A stretch of 58,578 nucleotides of DNA from Candidatus Cacconaster equi (GTDB lineage Bacteria > Bacteroidota > Bacteroidia > Bacteroidales > UBA932): the NCBI GenBank assembly GCA_018065895.1, contig JAGHSK010000019.1, positions 1 through 58,578 on the forward strand. Reading direction: 5' to 3'. The notes beneath the pieces are model-generated. The model saw nothing but the letters and a program-made list of their open reading frames with translations. It ran no database searches and was not told the origin of the DNA. Below are positions 54,210 through 57,461 of the stretch, piece by piece (the first letter of the stretch is position 1; every line of letters begins with the position of its first letter). Both the position numbers and the translations under genes were made by a program.

Positions 54210-54340
54210 CTGCCACAAATTTGCTTTGCTTCGTGGCAAACTCCCGCATTTTTCTCCTTTCTGCCACAAAAATGTCACAGTCTGTGGCAATATGTTCGGA
54301 AAAATGTCTTTTTGACACAGGAACACATCAAAGTGTGGCG
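54210..54340. repeat. Palindromic 51-base array upstream of the transposase (3 units)
   Basis: Left arms CTGCCAC start at 54210 and 54261, and a degenerate TTGACAC at 54312; right arms GTGGCAA, GTGGCAA and GTGGCGA start at 54233, 54284 and 54335. Each right arm is exactly 23 bases after its left arm and units are exactly 51 bases apart. Unit 1 is almost identical to unit 3 of the array at 55298. The third unit runs into the transposase promoter. Confidence 0.75.
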
Positions 54341-54347
54341 AATTTTT

Positions 54348-54355
54348 TATTTTTG
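54348..54355 (+). promoter_or_regulatory. Promoter -7 box for the transposase gene
   Basis: TATTTTTG fits TAnnTTTG and lies 20 bases before ATG 54376. It begins 8 bases after the right arm of the third palindromic unit, so the -33 region falls inside that unit. Confidence 0.55.
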
Positions 54356-54375
54356 TGCAATAAAAGCTGTGAGGT

Positions 54376-55281
54376 ATGAATGATTTCAGTGAGAAGGAAA
54401 ACAGCTGCAGGGATATATTTGAGTGTCTTGGCCCCTGCTGGCATCTTTGGTCCCCGGAGAACTTCGAGGTCATTTTCAGAAACGAAGAAGATTACAAATT
54501 CGGGATGAGCATTTTCGCAATATGCGCAAAAATGTGCTCTGGAGTAATGGTCTTGACTTTCGAGATAATGTCAAATCACATCCACGTCTGCATGGTTGGC
54601 GAATGGTCGGAGGTATCGGAATTTATCGACATGTTAAAAAAGTTCCTCGAACGTCACTTCAAAAGAGTGGGATACACTATCAACTGGCAGGTATTTGAGA
54701 TACGGAGTCGCGCTCTTGAGACTTTGGATGACATACGCAATGTGATAATATATGACAATCGCAACGGATATGTCGTTCATCCGGAATATTCTCCTTTTAC
54801 ATATCCATGGGGAGCAAACAAATATTTCTTTAATCCTGATTGTTGCAGATACACGGCTTCGTGCAGTAAAGAAATGACCGTACGGGAAAAGCGGATGTTC
54901 ATGCACTCAAGGATTGGTGAATCCGTCGTTGGACTGAAAATGGCCGACGGCTATGCGAATCCCATGACGTTTTGCAATATTGGCCTGGCGGAGAAGTTGT
55001 TTAGGGATGCCGGCAACTATTTCTACAAACTCGGGAAAAGCGTGGAAGCAAACAGGCAGATCTCCAAGGAATTGGGCGAGAGCATTTATTACACAGACGA
55101 TGAATTGTTCGCTGCCATCAGTCATATCTGTAAGAAAAGGTTCGGGAATGGGCTTCCATCGGTTATCCCGGCCAATGCTAAAATCGAGCTGGCCCGAACT
55201 ATGCGATACGAATACAACGCCTCGCCAAAGCAAATACAACGGATTTTACGGATAGATACCGGACTGATTTCGCAATTATAA
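54376..55281 (+). CDS. REP-associated (RAYT-like) Y1/HUH transposase
   Basis: 301 residues. The core has the HUH motif H68-I-H70 in MSNHIHV, preceded by a beta strand (VMVLTFEI), and a candidate catalytic tyrosine Y126 in VIIYDNRNGYVV. This is the IS200-like Y1 fold, but there is no TnpB and the protein is about twice the length of TnpA of IS200. The extra C-terminal part (about 170-301) ends in a helix-turn-helix-like YNASPKQIQRILRID. Palindromic arrays lie on both sides, three units before and four after, in the same orientation, as expected for a REP/RAYT locus. It presumably cuts or joins single-stranded DNA at these hairpins; this is inference. Confidence 0.82.
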   Translation: MNDFSEKENSCRDIFECLGPCWHLWSPENFEVIFRNEEDYKFGMSIFAICAKMCSGVMVLTFEIMSNHIHVCMVGEWSEVSEFIDMLKKFLERHFKRVGYTINWQVFEIRSRALETLDDIRNVIIYDNRNGYVVHPEYSPFTYPWGANKYFFNPDCCRYTASCSKEMTVREKRMFMHSRIGESVVGLKMADGYANPMTFCNIGLAEKLFRDAGNYFYKLGKSVEANRQISKELGESIYYTDDELFAAISHICKKRFGNGLPSVIPANAKIELARTMRYEYNASPKQIQRILRIDTGLISQL

Positions 55282-55297
55282 TCTTTTGGATGAGAAT

Positions 55298-55480
55298 CTG
55301 CCACAAGAATCACGTTCTGCGTGGCAATTCGCTCACATTTTCGTCTTTCTGCCACAAAAAGAGGTCTCAGCGTGGCAGAAATAGGCTTCCTCCAGCTTTC
55401 TGCCACAAATTTGCTTTGTTTCGTGGCAAACTCCCGCATTTTTCCTCTTTCTGCCACAAAAAAGGGACTTTGTGTGGCGA
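55298..55480. repeat. Palindromic 51-base array downstream of the transposase (4 units)
   Basis: CTGCCAC left arms start at 55298, 55349, 55400 and 55451; GTGGC right arms start at 55321, 55372, 55423 and 55474. Spacing is exactly 51 and offset exactly 23 in every unit, while loops and linkers differ. The first arm begins 16 bases after the transposase stop codon. Confidence 0.85.
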
Positions 55481-55576
55481 TTTGCCATTCCGGCTCTGTC
55501 GCAGACAGGGATGCGTCCGAGACTCACGGTTTCGCAGAGCTGCCTCTGTCCTTGACGTCCCTTTGCTGCGGAACTC

Positions 55577-55607
55577 GTGATTTTAGCTGCTACGCATCTA
55601 AAATCAC
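55577..55607. repeat. Perfect 10-bp palindrome in the tail of copy A
   Basis: GTGATTTTAG at 55577-55586 and CTAAAATCAC at 55598-55607 with an 11-base loop. The matching place in copy B (57318-57348) has two mismatches, so this stem is less conserved than the 51-base units. Confidence 0.6.
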
Positions 55608-55785
55608 TCACACAGTCCTCGCAATTCGCTTCGCGAACCGGGGCATCTGCGTCCGCCGGCTATTTCGCTCTGCTAAAAGTGAGTCCTGCCCGCATCCTGT
55701 CTGCTTTGAGGAGCCTGGGATTTTGGTTTTGCGGCCTACGACTGCTTTTTTGTGAAATAGTCACATTGCCCCAAAAAGATTTGTT

Positions 55786-55813: not shown

Positions 55814-56707
55814 ATGGAAGAAGAGAAAGGGAAAGGCGAAGTCGTTCTTTATCAGCCGAACGACACTATTCGATTGGAGGTCAGGCTCGATCAGGAAACA
55901 GTATGGCTGACACAGCAACAGATTGCAGACTTGTTTTGTGTCAAGCAGCCTGCCGTATCAAAACACCTTTCCAATATCTTCAAAGAAGGCGAATTGGAAA
56001 AGAATTCAGTTCATTCCATTTTGGAATATACTGCCGCTGATGGAAAAGTTTATAGAACCCAGTTTTATAACCTTGATGCCATTCTTTCTGTCGGCTACAG
56101 AGTCAACAGCATCAATGCTACGGCGTTCCGTCGTTGGGCGACGTCTGTGCTGAAGCAGTATCTTCTCAGGGGTTATAGTTTCAACCGGCAGTTGATGCAG
56201 ATGGAGGAGAGGATTGATCGTAAGTTGAATGTTCATCAGGATGAAATCAGGGTTATCAAGGGTGTTCAACAGAAGCAGCAGTCCCAGATAGATTTTTTCG
56301 TACGTACTTCATTGCCTCCGGTTGAGGGGGTTTTCTTTGATGGACAGGTATGGGATGCCTACGAGTTGGTTTCAAAACTCATAAAGAGTGCCAGGCGCAG
56401 GGTTGTGATCATAGACAATTATATCGATGATTCGGTTCTGACGTTGTTGGATAAGCGTGATTCGGGTGTCTCAGCAGAGATATACACAATGCAAATATCG
56501 AAACAGCTGGCTTTGGATATGGCAAGACACGATGCGCAGTACGCGCCTATCCCAGTAAAAATTATCAAGTCAGTCCACGACAGGTTTCTCGTCATTGACG
56601 AGGATGTCTATCACGTTGGAGCTTCCATCAAGGATCTCGGAAAGAAATGGAGTGCAATAATTAAGATGAAGAGTCTTGATTCTTCTTCTCTTCTGTCCCA
56701 TATTTGA
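55814..56707 (+). CDS. RhuM-type HTH protein fused to a phospholipase-D-like domain
   Basis: 297 residues. The N-terminal half (about 10-125) matches the RhuM/phage-antirepressor-like domain: VWLTQQQIADLFCVKQPAVSKHL is a clear helix-turn-helix, followed by FYNLDAILSVGYRVNS and FRRWATSVLKQYL. A short coiled coil (about 135-165) leads to a PLD-like region with RRVVIIDNYIDDSVL and one HxK-type motif in which Lys is Arg (H255, R257, D262 in HDRFLVID), then VGASIKDLGKK. Related genes are common near mobile or defence loci in Bacteroidota. It has its own promoter and sits between two direct repeats. Role unknown. Confidence 0.8.
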   Translation: MEEEKGKGEVVLYQPNDTIRLEVRLDQETVWLTQQQIADLFCVKQPAVSKHLSNIFKEGELEKNSVHSILEYTAADGKVYRTQFYNLDAILSVGYRVNSINATAFRRWATSVLKQYLLRGYSFNRQLMQMEERIDRKLNVHQDEIRVIKGVQQKQQSQIDFFVRTSLPPVEGVFFDGQVWDAYELVSKLIKSARRRVVIIDNYIDDSVLTLLDKRDSGVSAEIYTMQISKQLALDMARHDAQYAPIPVKIIKSVHDRFLVIDEDVYHVGASIKDLGKKWSAIIKMKSLDSSSLLSHI

Positions 56708-57037
56708 GTTTGTTATTTTCCTTTGTCCTCGACGACGGCAGTTTTGGCAGAGGTGATTGCCGATCCTGGTGCTGTGGAGAATACTTTGCGAGATAGTTTG
56801 CTTTGGAGAACTGGCTGCCGCTGCCGTCGGCTTACAATTCATCGGGTAAACTGAGATTCAGGTAACGGGTATAGGCTACAGAGCAGCATCTAAGGGCTAC
56901 TGCGAGAACTTGACGCTCTTTTTCGGGCTTCAAGTTCCAAGGGTACCTCACTGGAGTACATCCCAGGGCACATTGCCGTTACTTGATTTCGGGAAATCAG
57001 AGCATAACATAAGTTTCAGCTACTGGGACGGGGCTTT
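56708..57037. other. 330-base stretch without a recognisable gene
   Basis: I see no convincing coding region, promoter box or RNA gene here. The only structure is a long-range inverted pair (CGACGGCAG at 56733-56741 and CTGCCGTCG at 56821-56829). It may be decayed DNA left by the duplication of the neighbouring module. Confidence 0.4.
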
Positions 57038-57461
57038 CTGCCACAAAAAAGGGTTTTTGTGTGGCAATTTGCTCACATTTCCGCCTTTCTGCCACAAAAA
57101 GAGGTCTCAGCGTGGCAGAAATAGGCTTCCTCCAGCTTTCTGCCGCAAATTTGCCTTGTTTCGTGGCAAACTCCCACATTTTTCCTCTTTCTGCCGCAAA
57201 AAAGGGACTTTGCGTGGCAATTCGCTATTCCGGCTCTGTCGCAGACAGGGATGCGTACGAGACTCACGGTTTCGCAGAGCTGCCTCTGTCCTTGACGTCC
57301 CCTTTGCTGCGGAACTCGCGATTTTAGCTGCTACGCATCCAAAATCACTCAGACAGTCCTCGCAATTCGCTTCGCGAACCGGGGCGTCTGCGTCCTCCGG
57401 CTATCTCGCTCTGCTCAAAGTGAGTCCTGTCTGCATCCTGTCTGCTATGGGGAGCCTGGGA
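57038..57461. repeat. Duplicated module, copy B, with four palindromic units
   Basis: Left arms start at 57038, 57089, 57140 and 57191 and right arms at 57061, 57112, 57163 and 57214, again 51-base period and 23-base offset. In units 3 and 4 the left arm is CTGCCGC, which still pairs with GTGGCA through a G-T pair. The remaining 220 bases match the tail of copy A. Confidence 0.85.

Follow-up and report, generated by a model that had tools for sequence, protein, structure and literature searches.

The locus and its protein

The stretch of DNA analysed here (the window) is positions 1-58,578 of contig JAGHSK010000019.1 of the Candidatus Cacconaster equi assembly GCA_018065895.1. It carries a gene for a protein resembling the repetitive extragenic palindrome (REP)-associated tyrosine transposases (RAYTs), with tandem palindromes on both sides of it. 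The open reading frame (ORF; 54376-55281) is preceded by three units and followed by four units of the form TGCCAC-N16-GTGGCA, every step measuring 51 nt and the arm offset being constant (22 from TGCCAC, 23 from CTGCCAC). The 3 + 4 units, the period of 51 and the offset of 23 given in the first-pass annotation were all recovered, the third upstream unit being degenerate. The features are as follows:

54211-54238, + strand: upstream palindrome unit 1 (TGCCAC-N16-GTGGCA)
54262-54289, + strand: upstream palindrome unit 2
54313-54340, + strand: upstream palindrome unit 3, degenerate (two changes among the 12 arm bases; still 51 past unit 2)
54376-55281, + strand: gene for the RAYT-like Y1/HUH protein, 301 aa
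54577-54585, + strand: codons of H68-I-H70, the HUH motif (from the translation; H68 and H70 invariant among homologs)
54751-54753, + strand: codon of the candidate catalytic Y126 (invariant; within helix 117-134 of the model)
55081-55278, + strand: helical domain at the C-terminus (residues ~236-301), which may be helix-turn-helix (HTH)-like
55299-55326, + strand: downstream palindrome unit 1
55350-55377, + strand: downstream palindrome unit 2
55401-55428, + strand: downstream palindrome unit 3, a near copy of upstream unit 1
55452-55479, + strand: downstream palindrome unit 4
57039-57219, + strand: second four-unit array with no adjoining transposase (units at 57039, 57090, 57141 and 57192; steps of 51)
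254-332, + strand: degenerate two-unit array with stem TGCTAC (51 apart; arms with 1 and 2 mismatches relative to TGCCAC/GTGGCA)

N67, H68, H70 and Y126 were invariant in 76 of 76 aligned homologs, which bears out the earlier assignment of H68, H70 and Y126. Y126 would be the catalytic tyrosine, and the protein is presumed to bind DNA and to act catalytically. In a structure model comparison, its fold was nearest to 4er8, a solved REP transposase. The C-terminal region, previously described as HTH-like, was indeed helical in the model; an HTH-like character is plausible and not established, the weak first match being DnaA domain IV, tied with YqeY, and a Pfam scan of this domain gave no consistent match.

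A homolog was detected at E 0.001 in 31 of 40 genomes of the window's genus. Of 199 genomes drawn from the window's family, 94 were matched by a profile (A1) at 1e-10, in 12 of 25 genera; among 295 genomes drawn over the order it gave two matches, both in the same family. Pfam Y1_Tnp recognised 9 of the 76 members at E 0.01, and the NCBIfam RAYT model recognised 3 of the 76. The protein family is widespread in one Bacteroidales family, yet nearly invisible to curated models. The source genome (G000) has one close copy and one relative at 17% identity; the latter, a second homolog in this genome, lies at G000:C50:850-1695, and no TGCCAC units were present in the stretch fetched around it (L149).

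The palindromes were also found away from the gene. When up to two arm mismatches were allowed, the window held 18 matches, whereas 20 mononucleotide shuffles averaged 2.0, and 11 of the 18 made up three 51-step arrays. The array at 57039-57219, which the first-pass annotation had not listed, was a 92% copy of the downstream array plus the sequence that follows it; the TGCTAC pair at 254-332 lies ~54 kb from the transposase gene. Fetched stretches of the source genome outside the window held 21 further units; confinement to this locus, which the first-pass annotation had named as evidence against its proposal, was thus not observed. The groups comprised 3 + 4 + 4 units in the window, two each on contigs C7, C19 and C36, 4 + 3 on C59 and 2 + 3 on C60, and 19 of 19 steps were exactly 51; C19 and C60 open with identical array sequence and may not be independent. 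Isolated single units occurred on C7, C23 and C42, one each. Since units were situated at or near contig ends (G000:C19:1-102, C60:1-102, C42:106-133), assembly of the metagenome-assembled genome (MAG) probably breaks at them, and the copy numbers are lower bounds. A search for the empty site of the C7 array gave no match spanning the array in another genome.

Spacing and stems across homologous loci

The main locus set consisted of the best 80 of 149 homologous loci, from Bacteroidales MAGs; the named relatives among them were all MAGs, many from horse, rumen or other gut, and included Candidatus Cryptobacteroides, Cacconaster and Egerieousia. Flanks of 500 bp were scanned for any 5-mer arm recurring together with its complement, all periods of 20-129 being considered. 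Tandem palindromes at a period of 49-53 were present in 61 of the 80 loci, compared with 1 of 76 control windows from the same loci (likewise at period 51) and an average of 0.05 in 80 for first-order Markov flanks (periods of 50-52). Period 51 was seen in 50 loci, 102 in 24, 52 in 15 and 103 in 5; 50 (four loci), 101 (three) and 104 (two) were rarer, and any other period occurred in at most one locus. Neighbour steps of up to 130 nt were then counted over the whole locus with each locus's own stem, the stems having been chosen beforehand from chains with steps of 50-52 or twice that. There were 220 such steps: 166 at 51, 32 at 52, 4 at 50, one each at 52.5 and 53, 11 at 101-102, and five others (26 twice, 42, 107.5 and 108).

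Agreement between adjacent units, taken per column over 51 loci, was 0.89-1.0 for the arms (a value partly built in by the way they were chosen), 0.30-0.48 for the spacer and 0.39-0.50 for the loop centre; unit sequences diverged while unit length did not. The array proteins span the tree at 35-50% identity to the window protein, and the 51/52 state switches six times among 57 loci on that tree. The conserved spacing of 51 despite differing palindrome sequences suggests that the spacing itself matters. Six orthologous locus pairs were compared for length. Between L072 and L074 the upstream difference was 204 nt (4 x 51) and the downstream one 150 nt, and L105 and L106 differed downstream by 51 and 13, their upstream alignment being poor; L112/L119 showed a 60-nt difference beyond the array, L110/L113 a 24-nt difference, and L127/L132 and L098/L104 no gap of 10 or more. 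Whole-unit differences could be attributable to slippage or to enzyme action.

The stem was linked to the gene that it flanked. A stem 5-mer was common to both flanks in all 34 loci with both arrays readable, while shuffled flank partners gave a mean of 9.0 and a maximum of 17 matches. Twelve paralog pairs within a genome were available from ten MAGs, and in 11 of the 11 comparable pairs the arm 5-mers differed. Among the congeners, the window's own repeat had 30 strand matches in its own genome, 7 across five congeners and none in 34; GTCCAT-N16-ATGGAC was found at 19 places in G018, 3 in G017, 2 in G021 and 1 in each of four genomes, with none in 33.

Arrays were also sought independently of sequence, as 6-mer arms in clusters at 50-52, in partial samples of incomplete genomes. 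The homolog-bearing G018 had 11 clusters in 308 kb, at ~9 separate places. Two of the nine congeners without a homolog at E 0.001 were sampled, G007 (266 kb) and G012 (312 kb), and each had 0 clusters; arrays in genomes lacking the transposase, which the first-pass annotation had named as evidence against its proposal, were thus not seen at 50-52 in these samples. In the homolog-free G003, the gene upstream of the window array was present at 74% identity and similarity stopped at the gene end; other genes follow, with no RAYT-like gene among the listed ORFs. This neighbourhood is rearranged, so G003 is not a clean empty site.

The four-unit array folded better as DNA than its shuffled versions did (z -3.3; one in 200 matched it), and in the minimum-energy fold only the first and last units formed their own hairpins, the middle two pairing across. 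Pairing above control covered ~2-3 pairs inside and 3 pairs outside the 5-bp arm: the first two inner pairs were clearly above control and the third slightly so, and deeper positions paired at 0.32-0.43 against 0.27-0.45. The sixth inner pair was an exception (0.42 vs. 0.29, sd 0.039), unsupported by within-array swapping (0.42 vs. 0.39). A short-loop REP hairpin was rejected on this lack of pairing deeper inside the arm. Each unit therefore consists of two imperfect arms of ~7-8 bp placed ~two helical turns apart (arm distance 20-24 bp for 71 of 98 arrays), and it either forms a wide-looped short stem or is no hairpin. The data are compatible both with a hairpin of this kind and with a pair of half-sites in duplex DNA; the hairpin is preferred because of the enzyme class.

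More distant homologs showed further spacings. The counts vary between scans, which differed in flank size and offset limits. A second sample of 60 loci was intended to be distant, and its last ten (L380-L389) were closer to the main clade (~E 1e-75 or better); a robust period was found in 21 of the 60, 7 of these from the ten closer loci. Fourteen of the 21 periods, among them all seven from the closer loci, were at 50-52 or 102, and the others were 43, 57, 63, 72, 73, 74 and 83; on sequence reading, 43 and 57, like 42 in L225 of the first sample, were ordinary tandem repeats. Periods of 50-53 with offsets of 15-32 were present in 21 of 100 loci (16 of 90 distant and 5 of the ten closer). A second geometry, with arms 43 apart and a period of 72-74 on both gene flanks, was found with differing stems in L234, L337, L339 and L377, and by a wider criterion in 8 of 100 loci, all within the 90 distant ones. 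In this geometry a right arm and the left arm that follows it were 29-31 apart, near the main clade's 51 minus 20-24. A few loci had an offset of 52-54 with period 83; the plausible hairpin of L341 was the complementary reading, with offset 31. A helical-phasing ladder, set down before the second sample was analysed, is not claimed, the Rayleigh R being 0.73 at both 10.0 and 10.5.

Other elements adjoin the window arrays. A RhuM-like gene (55814-56707; Virulence_RhuM, E 3.2e-19, and a weak PLD domain) lies between the two arrays, and the array-gene-array composite recurs at G000:C59 (L146 945-2431), the aligned parts being 93-96% identical. Window positions 55927-56064, near the HTH-like part, did not align with the C59 composite, and 56324-56796 was missing from it; exchange of a specificity segment is possible. 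Directly after both window arrays there is a ~215-bp element with inverted ends (55491-55707 and 57231-57446), which also occurs alone at G000:C18:52545-52760 and is probably an independent repeat resembling miniature inverted-repeat transposable elements.

Interpretation and alternatives

These data are best read as a RAYT-type family not described before, whose cognate REP-like arrays tolerate a change of stem but not of spacing. We assign a probability of about 0.7 to a RAYT-type system in which a low-copy, probably domesticated Y1/HUH enzyme keeps its own REP-like palindrome family, with fixed spacing and variable stem. The first-pass proposal of a RAYT-like system in Bacteroidales is supported by the fold, the motifs, the locus-specific palindromes on both sides and the dispersed copies. 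The enzyme is very probably RAYT-like and the arrays are likely to be its substrate; that spacing between protein molecules sets the period of 51 is a tentative suggestion, held at somewhat below even odds. Under this model, every unit would fold to a hairpin when the DNA is single-stranded, e.g., on the lagging-strand template, the HUH domain would recognise the stem and Y126 would nick alongside. Repeated nicking and rejoining at equivalent points of neighbouring units could lead to whole units being gained, lost or seeded. The spacing would be held by a required contact between enzyme molecules on adjacent hairpins; the C-terminal domain may provide this contact or be a second DNA-binding part.

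Several observations weigh against this RAYT-type reading. Nineteen of the 80 loci had no exact array at 49-53; some of them showed imperfect hairpins ~51 apart by a looser test that had no control, and some were cut by contig ends. The loci are not all independent, several coming from one MAG and some pairs being near-identical orthologs. In the first sample of distant homologs, 11 of 40 loci had arrays at 49-53, and the homolog-bearing G017 had only 1 cluster in 267 kb. The inner loop was mostly unpaired above control, unlike short-loop REP hairpins. The nearest protein neighbour had the same stem in 38 of 55 loci; stems were shared in 38 of 47 pairs of proteins >70% identical, and sharing fell to 30-53% by a lenient test at ≤70% identity (30% in the most distant pairs), so stem turnover is faster than that of the protein. 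Nor is a repeat family always private to one genome: GGCACA-N14-TGTGCC was common to several (8 in G025, 6 each in G023 and G031, 5 in G009, 4 in G017, 1-2 in seven others and none in 28).

An alternative that we consider unlikely is that the units are double-stranded, helically phased half-sites, operator- or iteron-like, bound by dimers through a C-terminal domain that would be DnaA-like; the array would then serve as a binding platform in autoregulation, in organising the chromosome or in controlling replication, with HUH cleavage secondary. The two-turn arm distance, the loops largely unpaired past the first 2-3 inner pairs, the weak DnaA domain IV match and the distant-homolog periods of 63, 72-75 and 83-84, near multiples of 10.5, are in its favour. 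A related and still less probable idea is a protein-set ruler for each RAYT lineage, in which arm distance and period are inherited with the enzyme while the stem drifts. The arrays would be bound cooperatively as phased sites via the possibly DnaA-like tail and would serve a domesticated HUH initiator as a platform resembling iterons or an origin, not as mobile hairpins; behind this idea stand the two geometries, arms ~22 with period 51-52 in the main clade and arms 43 with period 72-74 in four distant loci whose flanks were both readable.

The first downstream arm lay a median of 28 nt past the end of the protein match (53 arrays), as it might if the units acted in RNA as terminators, attenuators or protectors of mRNA ends and stood beside the gene incidentally, and REPs elsewhere are said to influence transcripts (PMC8266576). 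Such a role is improbable, since it leaves the fixed 51, the upstream/downstream stem match and the upstream array unexplained. Whole-unit gains and losses also fit replication slippage, as in a neutral satellite whose period is a frozen accident. The period of 51 persists across differing stems and diverged loops and spacers, with almost no indels, in loci whose proteins are 35-50% identical to the window's; a constraint on the period is therefore needed. A simple satellite was rejected on the diverged spacers and loops at constant step length, and we give this explanation hardly any weight. The present family bears on the benefit of RAYTs to their hosts and on their recognition of fast-changing palindromes: the stem varied in many lineages and the spacing held, so the sequence-recognised and geometry-recognised parts are separable by experiment.

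Comparison with known systems

A clustered regularly interspaced short palindromic repeats (CRISPR) array was rejected: only the short arms were constant and the three neighbour proteins scanned were not Cas, no wider cas search having been made. A coding repeat (51 = 17 codons) was also rejected, despite an ORF running through the window array, because the main period was 52 in 11 and 50 in 2 of the 62 array loci (the 61 of 80 and the window), which breaks the frame. The features of IS200/IS605 (a core of ~150 aa, Y---Q and near-identical copies) were not found: the window protein has 301 aa, and its genome has one close copy and one 17% relative.

The RAYT/TnpA-REP systems with REPs, bacterial interspersed mosaic elements (BIMEs) or REPINs in E. 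coli, Pseudomonas and Stenotrophomonas share with the present family the Y1/HUH fold nearest 4er8, a low gene copy number, flanking palindromes of a family specific to the gene, copies of these dispersed elsewhere, and separate families per paralog. The window family differs in lacking the GT[AG]G foot, in having Y-x-N-R-N instead of Y---NP, and in its extra C-terminal domain, long loops and one period across differing palindromes. Y---NP of class 2 (PMC6006769) was absent, the window protein having Y126-D-N-R-N-G and the residue after N130 being G, N, D or Q and never P in 19 rows. The GT[AG]G hairpin foot is reported for subclasses 2.2, 2.4, 2.5, 2.7 and 2.8 (PMC6006769); here it was found in 0 of 6 window units and on 21 of 528 hairpin sides, vs. 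29 for the reversed control motif; 5 of 57 loci had it in half or more of their units.

TnpA-Y1 subclass 2.6 (Quentin 2018, PMC6006769) is similar in belonging to Bacteroidetes, in NH[LIV]H, in the gene-side 'atypical secondary structures' and in WQ, which is present in the window protein though absent in most homologs. It differs in its median length of 179 aa vs. 301 and in its YIH[QN]NP, which is replaced here by YDNRNG, and the tandem layout is not described in the available part of that paper. Subclass 2.1/TIRYT (PMC6006769) resembles the window protein in its length and its HTH or DnaA_C-like C-terminus (here a weak structural hint); it differs in that no REP-like sequences were reported there by automatic or manual search, whereas arrays are present here. 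BIMEs contain regularly spaced REPs in alternating orientation, for example in Xanthomonas campestris (PMC2817692); window-type units are near-symmetric without a clear asymmetric foot, and the orientation needed for REPIN/BIME inverse pairing was not readable.

In the open-access literature searched, subscription papers being outside its scope, we found neither a report of RAYT-associated arrays of fixed period in Bacteroidales nor a description of one spacing kept across different palindromes. The closest counterpart of the layout is P. fluorescens SBW25, in which REPIN clusters adjoin each of three RAYTs (PMC3116915); arrays there keep fixed spacings of 112 and 72, and the GI arrays are evenly spaced. 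The tandem layout that the first-pass annotation called unusual is real, and it is not new in itself, because tandem REP clusters beside RAYTs have been described in Pseudomonas (PMC3116915). The SBW25 arrays consist of near-identical units, flanks included, in one genome, whereas the units here are diverged and keep a single period across many species and stems. The new part is the spacing conserved across different stems.
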